Origin: Sphingobacteriales bacterium
Lineage (GTDB): Bacteria > Bacteroidota > Bacteroidia > Chitinophagales > LD1
DNA length: 64,000 nucleotides
Direction of reading: 5' to 3'
NCBI GenBank assembly: GCA_018262795.1
Contig: JADFDM010000008.1
Span: 62,001 to 126,000, forward strand
Shown here: positions 51,696 through 60,117 of the stretch, piece after piece
How positions within the stretch are numbered: the first letter of the stretch is position 1
Layout: every line of letters starts with the position of its first letter
Program-made: the position numbers and the translations under genes
Notes under the pieces: generated by a model
What the model was told of the DNA's origin: nothing
What the model saw: the letters and a program-made list of their open reading frames with translations, nothing else
Databases searched by the model: none

Positions 51696-54600
51696 CTATC
51701 GCAAAATAGTGAGTGAACCCTTGTAAGTATTATCGGTATGGTTATTCAGCCAAACAAAACTGGCTGTATAAATGTACACTCCACTCGGAGCTTTTACCCC
51801 TTTATAAGTGCCATCCCATTCAAAATTAATGTCTGTGGTGTCAAACACTTTTTCTCCAATGCGGTTGAATACCATGACATGAATTTGCTTGATGCCCGGA
51901 AGGTTTCCAAACATTTTCCATACATCATTAGTTCCGTCCCCGTTGGGGGTAAAAGCGTTCGGCACAAAAATGTCGTACTTGGGAATCACCGTAATGGTCA
52001 CCGAAGATACTCCCATGCAACCCGCGCTGGTCACCGCGCTTACTCGGTAAGTCACAGAGTAGTTGCCGTTGAATACCGGCTGGTCGCAATCGTAGCAGGA
52101 TAAACCAAAGGAAGGTTCCCATACATAAGAGGCAGTGCCCCCAAGATTAGTAGAAACTTGGAGTGGAAGGCTTTCTCCCAGATTTACTTCTGCTGCTGTG
52201 GGTAGCACATTGATGCTCACCGAGTCGGGTTCGGCAATGGTGCCGCTCTGTGTGGTGCTGCAATTATGGGCATCGGTCACGGTGACGGAGTAGTTCCCTA
52301 TACCCAAATTAGATTGAATACCACTGCTGTTCTGCACTCCATTCGAGAAGGTATAGGTATAAAGTGGAGTTCCTCCAGATGATGAAACACTCAGTTGTCC
52401 ATCTGTATAGTGATAACAGGTAACATCCGTTGGTGTGAGCACTGTTGTCAGTAAGTTCGGTTCGTTGATAGTGATGCTGGTAGAATCGGTACAGTTGTTC
52501 TGATCTGCAACATACACCGTATAGCTGCCCGCACTTTGGCCGGTAAACTGACCCGAAGCAGATGGCTGTGAATTCGTTCCATCGGTTGCGGAATAGGTGT
52601 AGGGCGAAACGCCACCTGCACCGTTGGCGGTAATGGTGCCGCTATTATCGCCTTTGCAAAGTAGATCCGTTTCAACAGCGCTTACAGTTAATTGAGTAGG
52701 TTCTGTTACGGTGGCCATTTGTGTCGCGGTGCAGTTATTAGCATCGGTCACCGTGACGGAATAATTCCCGGCAGAAATATTTAATGCAGAATCGCTGTTG
52801 CTCACATTCGGATTCCAAACGTAGGTGTAACCCGGTGTGCCGCCATTGACGGCCACTGCTATCAAAGCAGTGCTACTGCCAAAGCAAAGGTTATTAGAGT
52901 GCGTTTCAGAAGTCATTATCTGTGTAGGGGCATTGATAGTAAACGAAGCAGTTTGATTACAGGAATTGGCATCACTGGCACTCACCGTATAGGTTCCGGC
53001 AGTAGGCGCAACGGTTTGCAAATTCCCCCAAGCACCACTCCAACTATAAGTGTAAGGGGCGGTACCTCCGCTTGGATTAGCCGTTGCACTACCGGTGGCT
53101 CCAAAACAAAGAGCATCGGTGGTGGCCACCGTCATTATGGGAGCAGCAGGCTCGTTTATGGTAGCAGAATCTGAAAACGAACAATTGTTAGCATCGGTAG
53201 CGGTCACGTTGTAAACTCCTGCAGTTAAGTTAGTAATAGCTCCGGGTTGAACTCCTCCAGGATTCCAATTGTAGGTTACACTGCCGGTGGGGTTCACAAA
53301 GTTAGCGGTGGCGGTGCCATCTGCCGCACCATTGCAACTGGCATCAGTAGAAGTTAAAGTAAGGCTTTGCGGTCCAGGTTCAGTAATTGTTTCGCTGAGC
53401 GCTACGCTGCATCCGTTCGCATCGGTCACTGCTCCGGCATAAGTGTTTGGAGCCAGTCCGCTGAGAGTATCCGAGCCGGCCGGAATTGGATTCCCCATAA
53501 AAGTATAAGGAGTGGTTCCTCCAGATAGGTTGAGAATTACCTTTCCGTCATTTGCTCCGTGGCAGGTTACATCCGTGTGCGAAGAAGTAGCGCTTAATGC
53601 AGCAGCCGGTTGTGTAATAGAATCTTGCGAAGAAACAGTACAAGTGTTGGCATCTGTGATGGTGAGGCTATAAACTCCTGCGGTTAAGTTGCTCGGGTTG
53701 CTGCCCGTAGCGGAAGACGGATTCCAAGTGTAGGTATAGGTGGGAACTCCTCCATTTGTGCTGACTGCAAAACTGCCGGTGGCATCGCCATAACATTTTA
53801 CGGGGGTTGAAACTATATTGAAAGTAATGGCGGAAGGCTGGTTCACCGTAGCTGAATCCGTGAAGGAGCAGTTGTTGGCATCGGTTGCTGTCACGTTATA
53901 AGTTCCCGCAGTTAAGTTGGTAATAGCTCCGGGTTGAATCCCTCCCGGACTCCAATTATAAGTTACAATGCCGGTGGGGTTCACAAAGTTTGCAGTGGCG
54001 GTGCCATCTGCCGCCCCGTTACAAGTGGCATCGGTAGCGCTTAGGGTCAAGCTTTGCGGCCCAGGCTCTGTAATGGTTTCGCTCAAAGCTACATTGCATC
54101 CGTTTGCATCGCTTACCGATCCTGCATAAGTATTGGGAGCTAATCCCGAAAGTGTATTGGTTCCGCCTGGAATCGGATTGCCCATGTAAGTATAAGGTGG
54201 TGTTCCACCAGATATGTTGATGGTCACCGTTCCATCATTAGCCCCGTGGCAGGTAACATTTGTGTGCGAGGATGTAGCTACTAAAGCAGAGTCGGGTTGT
54301 AACAAGGTATCCGAGCCAATAAAGGTGCAACTATATTGATCGGTTACGGTGTAGTTATAAATACCTGCTGCTAAATTGGTCACAGTTTCGTTGTTCCCCA
54401 AGGCCGGGCTCCAAGCGTAGTTATAAGGAGAAGTTCCTCCGCTGACCGCCAGATGGATCCCTCCCGTAGTATCACCATAACAGCCAATATCCTGATCTAC
54501 CACTGAATAAGTAAGTGGTGGCGGGCCCGTAATAATTGAAGTTGCTGTAGTAGAACAACCTTTATCATCAGTGACGGTAAGCGTGTAAGTGCCGGCTATC

Positions 54601-56606
54601 AGGTGGGTGTTGGCGGTATCGCTGCTAAAATTACTCCACGCATAAGAGTAGGGAGGCGTGCCTCCTTCCACATCTGTCAAAATACTTCCTTTCCCAGCGT
54701 GATAGCAACTGTCATTAATCGTAAACATATCAATATTCAAAGATGGCATCGCACTGATAGAATCAGAAGCGGTAGCTGAGCAAGTATTGGCATCTGTTAC
54801 CGTAACCGTTATTATTCCCGGACTAAGACCATTGGCTAAAGGATTGTTCGGATGCCCTCCGCTCCAGGTATAGGTGTAGGAAGGCACTCCTCCCGAAGTG
54901 ACGGAGGCGAGTGCTTGTCCATCATTGATTCCCGGACACGAAATTCCTGAGGTGGTAATATCCACCAACATAGGGATAGCGGGATTAACAGTGACGGTAC
55001 CTGTAAAATGCTGACTGTTTCCATCAGTGTAATTGTAGGTGTAGTTTCCCGGAGCTAAACCGGTAATGGTAGCACCGCTTCCTCCATTGCTCCAATTGAT
55101 AGCAATAGGGGAAACCCCTCCGGTTACCGTCACGGTAGCGGTGCCATCGTTTACATTGGCGCAATGTTGGTTAGTAGCACTGGCGGAAAGTGTATAGCCA
55201 CAGGGCAACTGCGCGATTGTAGCCGTGTATTGCAACACTGACGAGCCTCCATTGTACTGAAGAGAAGCCGAGCAACCATTTGCATCGGTAAAATCAGCGA
55301 TGTAGTAGCCCGGAGCCAAACCGGTTGCATTAGCCCCCGGAATGCCCGCCCAGTTTACGCCTTGATAAGGAGGCGTGCCCCCCGCGATGCTGATAGAGGC
55401 GGTGCCATTATTTTGGTTGCAACTGGCATCGGTGGAGGTAACGGAAGCAGTTAAAGGAGGCGGCTGGTTAAGCGTGTACTGGGCAGAGGTGACGCATACT
55501 CCATCAGTAGCCGTTACGGTGTAGGTGCCGGCTGTTGCTCCCACATAAGAAGGCCCCACAATGTTTCCTCCATTCCAGCTATAAGTATAGTTGCCGAATC
55601 CTCCGGAAGCAGCTACCGCCAAACCGCCATTACTACCTCCATTACAAAGAGGTTGGGTAAGGGTTGGGCTAAGTACGATAGGGCTTCCTACCTGCACGGT
55701 GTGCGTCTTGGTAGCGGAACATCCGTTGATATCCAACATAGATAAACTTATCGTGTAATTTCCCGGTTGAGTATAAACGTGCTGCACATTAATATTGGCA
55801 AAAGACGGATTGTTATTAGTGATAACAGTGCCATCACCAAAATCCCAAGTGGCACTTTGGTAATTGTTCAATAACCCGTTCGCGCATTGATTTACAAATT
55901 CAATATCAATGGGATCTCCTAAACAGATTTGCGGTGGCACATTGAAATCTACATATAAATCGTACTGAAAATTGCTGTAATAGCAATCTTTTTGGGAGTA
56001 ATTATAGAAGCCAAACCGTCCGGGATGAAAGCAATCTTGCTGATCAAATACCTTCACTCCATCTACGTATATGATAGCTCTGGTGTAAGTGAGATACAAC
56101 TCAAATGCGTGATTGTTACCCTGTATCCAACCGGCACCTCCAAAGGTATTTTGAACCACCGTAAACTCAGGTGTGTTTTGGTGATTCCAAAATGTGGTAT
56201 TATACATTCCCGGAGGAATTACCCCATCTACTCGGCACAATGATTTGCCGCTAGAGGCCCCTCCTTGCTGTTTTTGTTTCCAGTCAAACAGCCAACAGTC
56301 AAAACTGTCGGTAGCTCCCATGGGATTTTGATAGCTGAATACAAATCCCATCCAGTCATCATCGCCATCTGTGGTTTTGAAGTTACCGGAAAGGTGGACA
56401 TTCATCAGATTGTAAGGCGAGAGATAGAAGGTAGGGTCTCCGTTAATCGTTTGGTGCACCTGTGAGCCCCCGCCTTGTACGACCCAGTTTCCGTTGCCGG
56501 GCTGTCCGCCCTTTACCCAAGTATTGAAGTCAACATTGGTAATACATTGAGAGCTTACAAAAGAATAGGCAAATGCGAATGAAAAAGACAGTAAAAATTT
56601 ATTCAT
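51696..56606 (-). CDS. Giant SprB-repeat surface adhesin with thrombospondin-C-like head and T9SS type B signal
   Basis: A 1636-residue surface protein. Signal peptide of about 19 residues (ends VSS). Residues 20-220 resemble the thrombospondin C-terminal (L-type-lectin-like) domain: DDDWMGFVFSYQNP, DCWLFDWKQ, GRFGFYNYSQKDC. A PKD domain (about 240-305, ATWDFGDGT) follows. Then come 15 SprB-type repeats of about 75 residues, each with 'C.G..DG......GG..PY.Y.W......T.L.AG.Y.VTVTDANGC'. The last ~90 residues, from FVPNAFTPNGDGTNDVW to GSLTILR, are the gliding-motility C-terminal sorting domain. It should be an adhesin on the cell surface, as SprB is in Flavobacterium gliding. Monocistronic. Confidence 0.92.
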   Translation of the reverse strand: MNKFLLSFSFAFAYSFVSSQCITNVDFNTWVKGGQPGNGNWVVQGGGSQVHQTINGDPTFYLSPYNLMNVHLSGNFKTTDGDDDWMGFVFSYQNPMGATDSFDCWLFDWKQKQQGGASSGKSLCRVDGVIPPGMYNTTFWNHQNTPEFTVVQNTFGGAGWIQGNNHAFELYLTYTRAIIYVDGVKVFDQQDCFHPGRFGFYNYSQKDCYYSNFQYDLYVDFNVPPQICLGDPIDIEFVNQCANGLLNNYQSATWDFGDGTVITNNNPSFANINVQHVYTQPGNYTISLSMLDINGCSATKTHTVQVGSPIVLSPTLTQPLCNGGSNGGLAVAASGGFGNYTYSWNGGNIVGPSYVGATAGTYTVTATDGVCVTSAQYTLNQPPPLTASVTSTDASCNQNNGTASISIAGGTPPYQGVNWAGIPGANATGLAPGYYIADFTDANGCSASLQYNGGSSVLQYTATIAQLPCGYTLSASATNQHCANVNDGTATVTVTGGVSPIAINWSNGGSGATITGLAPGNYTYNYTDGNSQHFTGTVTVNPAIPMLVDITTSGISCPGINDGQALASVTSGGVPSYTYTWSGGHPNNPLANGLSPGIITVTVTDANTCSATASDSISAMPSLNIDMFTINDSCYHAGKGSILTDVEGGTPPYSYAWSNFSSDTANTHLIAGTYTLTVTDDKGCSTTATSIITGPPPLTYSVVDQDIGCYGDTTGGIHLAVSGGTSPYNYAWSPALGNNETVTNLAAGIYNYTVTDQYSCTFIGSDTLLQPDSALVATSSHTNVTCHGANDGTVTINISGGTPPYTYMGNPIPGGTNTLSGLAPNTYAGSVSDANGCNVALSETITEPGPQSLTLSATDATCNGAADGTATANFVNPTGIVTYNWSPGGIQPGAITNLTAGTYNVTATDANNCSFTDSATVNQPSAITFNIVSTPVKCYGDATGSFAVSTNGGVPTYTYTWNPSSATGSNPSNLTAGVYSLTITDANTCTVSSQDSITQPAAALSATSSHTDVTCHGANDGKVILNLSGGTTPYTFMGNPIPAGSDTLSGLAPNTYAGAVTDANGCSVALSETITEPGPQSLTLTSTDASCNGAADGTATANFVNPTGSVTYNWNPGGVQPGAITNLTAGVYNVTATDANNCSFSDSATINEPAAPIMTVATTDALCFGATGSATANPSGGTAPYTYSWSGAWGNLQTVAPTAGTYTVSASDANSCNQTASFTINAPTQIMTSETHSNNLCFGSSTALIAVAVNGGTPGYTYVWNPNVSNSDSALNISAGNYSVTVTDANNCTATQMATVTEPTQLTVSAVETDLLCKGDNSGTITANGAGGVSPYTYSATDGTNSQPSASGQFTGQSAGSYTVYVADQNNCTDSTSITINEPNLLTTVLTPTDVTCYHYTDGQLSVSSSGGTPLYTYTFSNGVQNSSGIQSNLGIGNYSVTVTDAHNCSTTQSGTIAEPDSVSINVLPTAAEVNLGESLPLQVSTNLGGTASYVWEPSFGLSCYDCDQPVFNGNYSVTYRVSAVTSAGCMGVSSVTITVIPKYDIFVPNAFTPNGDGTNDVWKMFGNLPGIKQIHVMVFNRIGEKVFDTTDINFEWDGTYKGVKAPSGVYIYTASFVWLNNHTDNTYKGSLTILR
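53170..54300 (-). repeat. Multi-repeat duplication inside the adhesin gene, about 687-bp offset
   Basis: SprB repeats 7-8 and 10-11 (numbered from the N-terminus) are nearly the same protein sequence: both contain VTCHGANDG, MGNPIP, LSGLAPNTYAG and CNGAADGTATANFVNPTG. Matching positions differ by about 687 bases, i.e. a block of three repeats. The DNA copies have diverged at many third positions, so this duplication is older than the one in the 24662-28078 adhesin gene. Confidence 0.8.
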
Positions 56607-56774: not shown

Positions 56775-57299
56775 TTAGTGGAGAGGATTTTTCAGTAGAT
56801 CGGCTACCGGATGTAATTTAGAGATGGGGATAAAGTGGCAGTGGTAATTGCCTTGTGCGCTCAATTTGCTGCCAAAATCTTTGAGGGCGGCTTTATCTAC
56901 TTCCGCGGAGGTGGCATAGCCGCATAAATATGCACAAGCATTTGCTGGAATGGCATTGGCTTTCCTATCCTTCACATCAATGATTATTTGCACGTAGTAG
57001 GGGGGCTTTCGCTTCTTCGCATAATCCTCTCGCACCAGCAGGTGAAGTTTATGATTAAAAGGAAAGGCAGAGGCTTTAATTTCAAATTGGTCAAAATCAG
57101 TTTTGCCTTTGTTCTTTCCTACTCGGTGTTTCTGCCAGTCGCCAAAAAGGTAAGCGGCAAACACAAACTCTCCGAGGTGGCCGGTAAGGGTATCAATGTG
57201 GGAAGCAACCGTGCGATTTACTTTTGTTTCAGGAATTAACCGTTGGGCTTCGGTCAGCATTTCCTGCGTGATAAAGACGTATGGATAATCCTTTATCAT
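56775..57299 (-). CDS. Uncharacterised protein with PD-(D/E)XK-nuclease-like signature
   Basis: A 174-residue soluble protein of no family I can name. The spacing GHLGEF (E44), then TDFDQFEIKA (D68, E73-I-K75), is the E...D...ExK arrangement of the PD-(D/E)XK nuclease fold: Glu in the first helix, Asp and ExK on adjacent strands. The region after it (HLLVREDYAK, then YYVQIIIDVKD) could supply the remaining strands. There is no signal peptide. It starts 10 bases after the stop of the periplasmic binding protein gene, so it is the last gene of the guaA operon. The nuclease call rests on pattern only and may be wrong. Confidence 0.6.
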   Translation of the reverse strand: MIKDYPYVFITQEMLTEAQRLIPETKVNRTVASHIDTLTGHLGEFVFAAYLFGDWQKHRVGKNKGKTDFDQFEIKASAFPFNHKLHLLVREDYAKKRKPPYYVQIIIDVKDRKANAIPANACAYLCGYATSAEVDKAALKDFGSKLSAQGNYHCHFIPISKLHPVADLLKNPLH

Positions 57300-57309
57300 C
57301 GGATGGAGG

Positions 57310-58542
57310 CTAATAAATTTTCTTCAATTTGAAATCATCCACTTCAAACACATTTACGTGGCGATTTTCGTAATAATTGATCTGAGTGCTGTCGCTCATT
57401 TCCTTCATGATGTCAAACTTATTAGCAGTGCCGGTAAATCGCTGGGTAATTATTTTTTGGAGGAAATCTTTGCCGTATAAAGGAAGAACCGTCAGCAAAA
57501 AATTCATCACATCATACCCTAAGAACGACATTTCGCTCGGCTCTTTGTAGTAGGTAGAAATGTAGTTATTAATAAAGTGGGTAGTCTCCTCTTTGGTTGT
57601 ATCGGCATAAAAGCCATCAGACAAGCGGCACTGAAAACTATTCAGATAATCGAGGCGCAAAATTTCGCTGTTGAGCCAAGTAGGCATGCCGTAAGCAATG
57701 ATGTTATAGCTTTTCGTTTTATCTAATAAGCCACCTAATGTTCCGTTGACAAAGGAGCCTTCAAAGGAAGTGATAATCACAATATTGGTTTTGTTCTTCA
57801 CCAAAAAATCAGCCAAGTTCTTTTTCTCGTTTTTTGCATTGATGTCTTTTATGGTAATTAAGGTTTCGGAAAATTTAAGAGTAGAAGTTTGGTTGTAATC
57901 TTTAATCAGGGAATCGAATCGCGCTGCGGTAGATTGGCCAATTTCAGTATCGGGAGAGTAAAGAATAATGTTGGCAGTGGTGAAGGAATCCAGAATAGAC
58001 AAAAACATATTGTCCACGTGAGCATCAATAGTAGCGGCTAATTTTAGATGGTAAGGATTGTTGGCAGTGAGACTTTTAGAAGGCGTGAATGGCTGCACAT
58101 TCAGAATGTGGTTTTCTTTACAAAAATCGGCCATGATTTTTGCATTAGAAGTAGCCGAGGGGCCTATGATGATATCCGCTTTTTTGAGATCGGGAGTTTT
58201 GAGCAATTCCTCGGTTACCGAATCACTGTTCCAGCAATCATACACATGCAGGTCAATGTGAATGCGATTGGTGTCCTCATTCAACGACTGCACTAAGCCC
58301 TGATAAAAATCAAGAGCCTCGGTGGCGTAATTATTCAAGTTAGTTCTGCTGGCCGTGTAAAAATCGGGAGCCGAAAAAAAGTCTTCCATTTCACCCGAAG
58401 TGCTTTCGGTTTGAAAAGGAAGTATTAACCCAATGCGGTAATTGGGAATAGTGTCACTCTGTATAAGTCGAGTGGTATCGGTTTGCGCATTCGCCAAAAT
58501 GAATGCTACACAACACAGCGATAGGACAAGTGATTTCTTCAT
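57310..58542 (-). CDS. Periplasmic substrate-binding-like protein (ABC/receptor ligand-binding fold)
   Basis: A 410-residue exported protein. Signal peptide of about 19 residues after the ATG chosen here (MKKSLVLSLCC, cleavage near ANA); the frame extends 30 bases upstream to a TTG, which I think is not used. Two alpha/beta lobes follow, with ADIIIGPSATSNAKIMADFC and later IILYSPDTEIGQ typical of the type I periplasmic ligand-binding fold (Peripla_BP_6 group) used for amino acids or in LysM-linked Bacteroidota proteins. No permease or ATPase genes lie nearby, so it is an orphan. It begins 33 bases after guaA on the same strand. Confidence 0.8.
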   Translation of the reverse strand: MKKSLVLSLCCVAFILANAQTDTTRLIQSDTIPNYRIGLILPFQTESTSGEMEDFFSAPDFYTASRTNLNNYATEALDFYQGLVQSLNEDTNRIHIDLHVYDCWNSDSVTEELLKTPDLKKADIIIGPSATSNAKIMADFCKENHILNVQPFTPSKSLTANNPYHLKLAATIDAHVDNMFLSILDSFTTANIILYSPDTEIGQSTAARFDSLIKDYNQTSTLKFSETLITIKDINAKNEKKNLADFLVKNKTNIVIITSFEGSFVNGTLGGLLDKTKSYNIIAYGMPTWLNSEILRLDYLNSFQCRLSDGFYADTTKEETTHFINNYISTYYKEPSEMSFLGYDVMNFLLTVLPLYGKDFLQKIITQRFTGTANKFDIMKEMSDSTQINYYENRHVNVFEVDDFKLKKIY

Positions 58543-58575: not shown

Positions 58576-60117
58576 CTATTCCCATTCGATAGTGGCAGGT
58601 GGCTTAGAGGAAATATCATAAACCACTCGGTTTACTCCTTTCACGTTATTAATAATTTCGTTAGAGGTTTTAGCTAAGAACTCATAAGGCAGGTGGCTCC
58701 AGTCGGCCGTCATGCCATCGGTAGAGTTCACCGCTCTAAGTGCTACCACATTTTCGTAAGTTCTTTCATCGCCCATTACGCCAACGCTTTTAATGGGAGT
58801 CAGAATAGCTCCTGCCTGCCATACCTCATTGTAAAGCCCAAATTTTTTCAGATTTTCGATGTATATATAGTCGGCCTCTTGAAGAATGGCTACTTTTTCG
58901 GCAGTGATATCACCGAGTATTCGCACCGCCAAGCCGGGCCCCGGGAACGGATGGCGATATAATATTTCGGGAACCAACCCCAATTCTTTTCCCGCTTTGC
59001 GCACTTCATCCTTAAACAAATTGCGAAGTGGCTCCACTATCTTCAGGTTTAGAATATCGGGTAAGCCACCCACGTTGTGATGTGATTTAATAGTGGCAGA
59101 AGGGCCATTGACCGAAACGGACTCGATCACATCGGGATAAATAGTGCCTTGCGCCAGCCACTTCACTTCGGGGTGATTGTTGGCTTCGTGTTCAAACACC
59201 TCTATAAATACGCGGCCTATTATTTTTCTTTTTTGTTCCGGATCACTCACTCCCTGAAGCTCACTAAGAAAGCGCTTGCCGGCCTTTATCCCATGAACAT
59301 TCAATCCCATTTTTTTGTATTCATCCAGCACACTTACAAATTCATTCTTGCGAAGTAGTCCATTATCTACAAACACGCACAGCAGATTATTCCCTATTGC
59401 CTCTTCTAATAGCAAGGCGGCAACAGAGGAGTCCACCCCGCCACTTAACCCCAATATCACCTTTTCATCACCAATCAACGCTTTTAAACTTTTCACGCTA
59501 TTCTCCACAAACGAGCCGGCTGTCCAACTGTGGGTGCATCCGCAAACATCAAAAAGGAAATTACTGAGTACTTGCTTTCCCTCGGTGCTGTGGTACACTT
59601 CGGGATGAAACTGGAGGGCATATACTTTGTTGGCAAATCCACCATTGCAGGACCGGAATGCCGCGGTTTTCACTGAATCAGAACTGGCAATCAACTCGAA
59701 TTTATTGCCGATACTTTTTATCGTGTCACCATGACTCATCCACACTTGGCTGTTATCGGCCACCCCTTTTAGCAGGGTGTCGTCCGCTACTTTTATTTGC
59801 AAATGTGCCCGGCCATATTCGCGGATATTGCTTTTTTCTACACTTCCTCCGTACGTATGTGCCATCAACTGTGCGCCATAGCATACTCCCAACACGGGGC
59901 CGAAATTGATAAGTTTGTCAATGTCCACTTCCGGGGCATTTGGGTCTAATACCGAAGCAGGTGAGCCGGATAAAATAATGCCTTTGATATCGGGCGTTAA
60001 TTCAGGCAAATGATTGTAAGGGAAAATCTCGCAATACACCTCACACTCTCTTACTCTACGGGCTATCAGTTGGGTGTATTGGGAGCCAAAGTCAACTATC
60101 AGAATCTTTTCAGTCAT
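58576..60117 (-). CDS. guaA: GMP synthase (glutamine-hydrolysing)
   Basis: A 513-residue cytosolic enzyme converting XMP to GMP. The class I glutamine amidotransferase domain has the nucleophile C79 in GVCYGAQ and the later HPEVYHS. The ATP pyrophosphatase domain carries the PP-loop [10 protein letters not shown], and the C-terminal dimerisation region ends with the expected PPATIEWE. Length is normal. It is the first gene of a three-gene minus-strand operon with the binding protein and the PD-(D/E)XK-like protein. The -7 element almost touches the ATG. Confidence 0.97.

Follow-up and report, generated by a model that had tools for sequence, protein, structure and literature searches.

What does a gene for a small nuclease-like protein do behind guaA, the gene for GMP synthase, and is its product likely to act as a nuclease at all? 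The question arises from a 64,000-nucleotide stretch of DNA from a Sphingobacteriales bacterium (the window), in which an open reading frame with an ATG start, on the minus strand at 56775..57299, encodes a protein of 174 residues. An earlier note made from the letters of this DNA had called the product a PD-(D/E)XK-like orphan, and had proposed that it could be a repair or defence component or else a degenerate, non-catalytic relative of the restriction-endonuclease fold. We consider it, with a probability of about 0.8, to be the endonuclease of a Type II restriction-modification system (a putative PD-(D/E)XK-type enzyme, hereafter nuclease R) whose gene is separated in the genus from that of the methyltransferase, M. 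Type II systems are usually linked gene pairs. In the mechanism that we propose, nuclease R would cleave a short target, most likely GGCC, in DNA that lacks modification, M would mark this target in the host's own chromosome from a distant locus, and transcription of the guaA operon would drive nuclease R.

The protein encoded behind guaA

Nuclease R is the last of three genes on the minus strand, preceded by guaA (58576..60117; PF00958 and PF00117) and by a gene for a periplasmic ligand-binding-like protein (57310..58542, starting with the ATG at 58542; PF01094), from which it is separated by a gap of 10 bp. The order guaA, binding protein, nuclease R recurs in two other genomes of the genus (G008 and G017), and a consensus scan of the minus strand from the binding-protein gene to nuclease R found no terminator-like site. 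Given the conserved order, the short gap and the lack of such a site ahead of nuclease R, co-transcription with guaA is plausible on sequence grounds. The guaA and PF01094 genes are nevertheless neighbours that lie outside the restriction-modification system. A PF01094-type binding protein is present in 17 of 18 genus genomes, and the pair that it forms with guaA occurs in genomes with and without nuclease R. The location that the earlier note had given, last in the guaA operon, holds for three of the eight genus genomes with nuclease R (the window's own, G000, together with G008 and G017) but not for the other five, in which the gene lies between two other genes (G004, G014 and G015) or behind still others (G001 and G016). 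Since the gene is thus placed behind other genes in 5/8 genomes, the guaA operon is uninformative as to the function of nuclease R; the earlier remark that a nuclease seems out of place there is correct for the operon, but the probable partner is encoded elsewhere. The downstream neighbour of nuclease R is common to G016 and G017, and an examination of ten loci from genus genomes devoid of the gene revealed no decayed copy of it behind guaA. Elsewhere in the window, positions 51696-56606 encode a protein of 1636 residues, probably a surface adhesin, that carries SprB repeats, PKD domains and a signal for type IX secretion.

The gene is more than a chance open reading frame, since relatives 67-71% identical to it are found in seven other genomes of the genus. 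The four residues to which the earlier note had pointed are present at the positions it gave, and their conservation among relatives, on which it had made its reading depend, is complete: E44, within the sequence GHLGEF (codon 57168..57170, minus strand), D68, the predicted metal ligand (57096..57098, minus strand), and E73 and K75 of the E73-I74-K75 motif (57075..57083, minus strand) are invariant in 14/14 aligned relatives, and an alignment of the eight genus members agrees. An AlphaFold2 model built from the 14-sequence alignment (pLDDT 86.4, pTM 0.84) places E44 within a helix (residues 34-52) and E73-x-K75 on a strand (residues 72-79). The PD-(D/E)XK superfamily is marked by an acidic residue in a helix, an aspartate, and a (D/E)-x-K motif on a strand, and nuclease R carries all of these in helix E44, D68 and strand E73-x-K75. 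A Foldseek search with the model yielded no match at E <= 0.001, the lowest E-values belonging to unrelated proteins. VIA-align, which here re-aligned Foldseek's own candidates only, gave a best Z of 6.9 and none at Z >= 8 among 552 aligned chains, with Eco15I (Z 6.9) and NhoI (Z 6.4) at the top, followed by DpnI, Hjc, PvuII, EcoRV and MutH; the 50 rows listed appear to be PD-(D/E)XK nucleases. As all of these Z values fall below 8, the rows count as support for the fold and for nothing more. Taken with the invariant residues and the helix and strand of the model, these weak structural neighbours support the description of nuclease R as PD-(D/E)XK-like.

The sequence itself fell outside the profiles of four libraries (Pfam, NCBIfam, PHROGs and PADLOC), none of which gave a credible match for nuclease R or the relatives scanned. 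A Pfam match to DIX (E 0.16) and an NCBIfam match to MecA (E 0.0053) were set aside as weak chance matches, as were the poliovirus receptor entries that were the sole outcome of PDB sequence searches. A role in repair, one of the options in the earlier note, found no supporting evidence: MutH and Holliday-junction resolvases figure among the weak VIA rows (Z < 8) without any sequence match to nuclease R, and inspection by eye of the listed immediate neighbours of nuclease R and its relatives recognised no repair genes. In the Calditrichia MAG (L014), the start of an open reading frame 2 kb upstream of the nuclease R relative looks RecG-like by eye.

Degeneration of nuclease R to a non-catalytic protein was the other option raised before, and solitary restriction-enzyme genes are sometimes inactive, as in a Bacteroides example cited in PMC3488263. 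For nuclease R we regard such degeneration, or a repurposing without nuclease activity, as very unlikely. The four predicted catalytic residues are invariant, and dN/dS (Nei-Gojobori) is 0.04-0.11 in six of seven pairs, at dS 0.9-1.5, with dS saturated in the seventh pair (G000/G008); a further argument, from motif avoidance, is given below.

Methyltransferase M and its separation from nuclease R

Among 60 related genomes, nuclease R was found in eight, all of them inside the genus (8/18 genus genomes), and an intact copy is present in 2/395 genomes of the phylum, namely the window's own and G256. A search of assembled contigs returned 12 loci, seven of which belong to the genus genomes already known and five to other MAGs, titled as Bacteroidetes, Ignavibacteriales, Calditrichia, Cloacimonetes and Deferribacteres, whose proteins are 62-68% identical to nuclease R. 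Together with G256 these five serve as the outgroup, a status that rests on record titles for the MAGs (for L018 also on the position of its methyltransferase, which branches off outside the genus clade) and on computed kinship for G256. Viral contigs, phages and plasmids yielded no confirmed relative, the 168 viral pattern matches including none, and one phylum match of 49 residues containing a stop (G188) was dropped as due to chance. In the Calditrichia MAG (L014:7947-9965), the nuclease R reading frame continues, without a change of frame, into the sequence of an AllG-like protein (PF06545), by fusion or through an assembly artefact.

A survey of gene neighbourhoods, which the earlier note had suggested, led to the methyltransferase. 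In five of the six outgroup genomes (L012, L016, L017, L018 and G256), nuclease R directly follows a gene for a DNA methyltransferase of about 390-430 residues with the motifs DPFxGRGTT and TSPPF; in the sixth (L014), M is present on another contig than nuclease R. The two linked M proteins scanned match PF01555 (E 5e-20 and 1e-17) and, over nearly their full length, the PADLOC profile MTase_II PDLC03325 (E 3e-146 and 7e-157). TSPPF is present in 27 of the 28 sequences covered by a motif search, that of G256 reading ASPPF, and by the usual motif rules M would probably be an N4-cytosine methyltransferase. Within the genus, M is found in all eight genomes with nuclease R (E < 1e-190) and in four of the ten lacking it (one-sided p 0.011, with genomes counted and kinship ignored). 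Adding the five linked outgroup genomes and L014 to these eight, M accompanies nuclease R in 14/14 genomes. Across the 395 phylum genomes, M was present in both of those with an intact nuclease R, versus 16 of the 393 others. The suggestion of a defence component is thus supported, in the sense that nuclease R appears to be one of the two parts of a system of a classical type, the other part being encoded on another contig of the window's genome.

M is also found in other company. In two genomes (G446 and G370), a member of the M family adjoins a different nuclease, PADLOC REase_II PDLC03511 (L137:1173-4195 and L142:617-2736). The PDLC03511 profile matched neither the window's nuclease R nor the three relatives searched, so that M proteins of a single family seem to have partners from two families of nuclease. 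Four plasmid methyltransferase records, 26-41% identical, had no recognisable nuclease R relative beside them. In the Bacteroidetes MAG (L018:8709-9008), an HNH endonuclease-like open reading frame (PF01844) follows the linked pair.

In all eight genus genomes with nuclease R, the two genes lie on different contigs, and the contig ends set their distance at no less than 166 kb in G000, 159 kb in G008, 193 kb in G017, 71 kb in G015, 15 kb in G016, 12 kb in G014, 10 kb in G004 and 4.9 kb in G001. The M gene adjoins a protein of family F03 in seven of 12 genus genomes (G000, G001, G012, G013, G015, G016 and G017), and the M contigs of G006 and G010 end at that place; another neighbour, F01, is common to G004, G014 and G015, and M of G008 has no common neighbour. 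F03 (L060:9144-10205) is a basic protein rich in Lys, Ala and Pro, with a DksA/TraR zinc finger (PF01258) in the one copy tested.

The 12 genus M sequences form one clade (support 100/98), and the nuclease R tree neither supports nor contradicts a single clade for the genus sequences. R and M distances correlate (Mantel r 0.87 in the genus and 0.75 over 14 genomes), as fits joint vertical descent of the two sequences, a correlation of this kind being no proof of interaction. In a tree of guaA and the binding protein (17 genomes, G016 lacking the locus), the genomes with nuclease R fall into two clades, inside one of which lies G009, with neither R nor M; the four genomes with M alone fall into a third clade that also holds G011, an 80% complete genome devoid of both genes. 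The likely history would have M inherited within the genus and R moving between operon ends, with R lost and M retained in one clade and both lost together in G009.

Site avoidance and the predicted target

To predict the target, motif frequencies were compared in two strata, the eight genus genomes with nuclease R against the ten without, and outgroup genomes with the pair against those with M alone, the latter defined by an inspection by eye of about 1.5 kb on either side of M. The DNA sampled amounted to 18-300 kb per genome and was taken from stretches other than the window, L055 and the short stretches L149, L223-L225 and L244; of the 16 further phylum genomes that carry M, the ten with a retrieved locus were used. 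GGCC emerged as the motif whose avoidance goes with nuclease R. Its observed/expected ratio is below 0.5 in 10/14 genomes with nuclease R versus 1/18 without (G446 and G370 set apart), a result that also speaks against an inactive enzyme. Ratios in the genus are 0.08-0.66 with nuclease R and 0.37-1.01 without, of which 0.79-1.01 in the genomes that have M alone; the six outgroup genomes with nuclease R gave 0.03, 0.09, 0.15, 0.30, 0.65 and 0.82, and eight outgroup genomes with M alone 0.56-1.06. Where M stands beside PDLC03511, GGCC is likewise rare (0.06 in G446 and 0.02 in G370).

With these last two genomes counted as paired, GGCC is contained in 27 of the 28 motifs showing a more than twofold median drop in both strata (3175 motifs examined), although these 27 are not independent of one another, and the choice of GGCC was made once the scan was complete. 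When G446 and G370 are left out, GGCC reaches a family-wise permutation p of 0.0065 by effect and 0.031 by rank, values that ignore kinship and count genomes, not independent events, the genus consisting of few clades. Of 3165 motifs, GGCC comes sixth by effect and eighth by rank. AGGCCT is first by effect, and motifs without GGCC are interspersed, with ATCGAC second and GTCGAC seventh by effect and CTNNAG (a small effect) first and GACGAA sixth by rank. Avoidance is weak despite the presence of nuclease R in G000 (0.66), G016 (0.58) and Cald (0.65) and hardly visible in Defe (0.82), and one genus genome without nuclease R (G002) also avoids GGCC (0.37). On the strength of this comparison, we think it probable that the target of nuclease R is GGCC, a HaeIII-like specificity. 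Genomes with a Type II pair usually, though not obligatorily, avoid its site, and such avoidance is seen here for GGCC.

The first candidate for the target had been another motif, CGNCG. In the 381 kb sampled from G000 it is absent against 764 expected occurrences, each of the eight genus genomes with nuclease R has 0 or 1, and their total is 3 observed to 1589 expected, in contrast to 412 to 424 in the four genomes with M alone, where the motif is at its normal level. Out of 29,160 motifs, CGNCG and motifs extending it take all of the top 35 places in the contrast between these two groups. Whole-genome counts of CCGNCGG against a reversed control point the same way: 1/775 in G000 (3.48 Mb, the window included), 0/855 in G008, 0/225 in G014, 1/243 in G004, 2/340 in G001, 9/415 in G017, 20/504 in G016 and 82/342 in G015. 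The enzyme might then cut CGNCG and be tolerated in the genus through a purge of the site from the chromosome, not through methylation. The purge, however, does not follow the nuclease. It is seen in the sampled stretches of 11/18 genus genomes, with or without nuclease R, and equally in ten genomes with neither R nor M, three of the genus for CGNCG (G003, G005 and G009) and, for CCGNCGG, four of the family (G018, G019, G021 and G022) and three of the order (G033, G053 and G042). A profile that recovers nuclease R in all eight genus genomes known to have it found no homologue at E <= 10 in these ten or in ten others. None of the six outgroup genomes with nuclease R avoids CGNCG, and its place in the combined two-stratum test is 745 of 3165. 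For these reasons CGNCG was replaced by GGCC, and a CGNCG-cutting enzyme tolerated by purge appears unlikely to us. There is similarly a slim chance that the genus nuclease has gone beyond methylation as its sole safeguard, cutting CGNCG besides or instead of GGCC in a host free of the site; if so, the near-complete purge would let a restriction gene wander between operons.

The CCGNCGG sites that remain were read in part. All 17 in G000 (1), G001 (2), G004 (1), G017 (9) and G009 (4) fall in mechanically called open reading frames, and the stretches around them had no Rfam match; in two of these stretches (G017:C40 and G009:C183) the count of CGNCG comes to roughly half of expectation or matches it in full. 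At least 38 of the 82 sites of G015 lie on contigs C44-C52, and the two that were read, at 58-61% G+C, look like contamination. In G002, which has neither R nor M (L135, L160-L163), CGACG is found 3 times against 47 expected, CGNCGA 2 against 46 and CCGNCGG 18 against 19, as if a narrower specificity were at work.

A GGCC-specific nuclease paired with M is to be weighed against one more reading, prompted by the structural comparison. NhoI, Eco15I (8q5n, 8q5o) and DpnI (4esj), the best rows for the fold (Z 5.6-6.9 over 116-137 residues), are methylation-dependent enzymes, the top rows, Eco15I and NhoI, being structures with methylated DNA. Nuclease R might be a Type IIM- or IV-like enzyme, directed at foreign DNA that carries modification and independent of any cognate methyltransferase. 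We hold this to be highly improbable. Z values in this range show no family membership, and nuclease R is 11-14% identical to the three enzymes with no sequence relationship found. The strict pairing with M, adjacent in 5/6 outgroup genomes and present in 14/14 genomes with nuclease R, fits a protective role of M, and GGCC avoidance follows nuclease R, whereas Type IIM sites escape avoidance in the vast majority of cases according to PMC4687349.

Relation to known systems

The kind of system to which we assign nuclease R and M is already known. Ershova et al. 2012 (PMC3488263) defined separated systems by a distance of more than 4 kb between the genes together with orthology to other systems. 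In 1040 genomes they predicted 57 such systems and counted 19 Type II nucleases among them. The functional separated systems then known were of Type I, and the Type II ones were predictions still needing proof. Distant pairs were thought unlikely to be common by Oliveira et al. 2014 (PMC4176335). The genus genomes resemble the separated Type II systems of PMC3488263 in that R and M belong to an orthologous group and lie more than 4 kb apart, linked orthologous systems exist elsewhere, and M has no member of the nuclease R family beside it. In that source, the 19 Type II cases fall into seven groups and linked systems are given for only two of the seven. Unlike those cases, the present split extends over eight genomes of a single genus, in which R occupies several loci, and linked nuclease R relatives occur in MAGs titled as several phyla. 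A genus-wide Type II example is thus a well-supported new part, and a second one is the nuclease family itself, recognised by none of four profile libraries and having GGCC as its predicted target; among the open-licence papers listed by literature searches we recognised none that describes this family.

As to avoidance, Rusinov et al. 2015 (PMC4687349) reported that about half of orthodox Type II systems show avoidance of their sites, long-lived systems more than others, and that traces remain after a restriction system has been lost. The linked relatives of nuclease R are like orthodox GGCC Type II systems in having a small nuclease beside M, a predicted 4-bp palindrome as the site and avoidance of that site, and unlike them in that nuclease R has no credible match in the four profile libraries and no relative by sequence in the PDB. 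The genus, with genomes holding both genes, M only or neither, forms with the linked relatives elsewhere a natural series in which the stability of a split system becomes testable.

Among profiled families, PADLOC MTase_II PDLC03325 includes the two M proteins scanned, and REase_II PDLC03511 differs from nuclease R, GGCC being avoided equally in the two genomes in which PDLC03511 is the partner. In one of these (G446), the M and PDLC03511 pair is located between two similar copies of what by eye looks like a transposase gene, as in a composite transposon.
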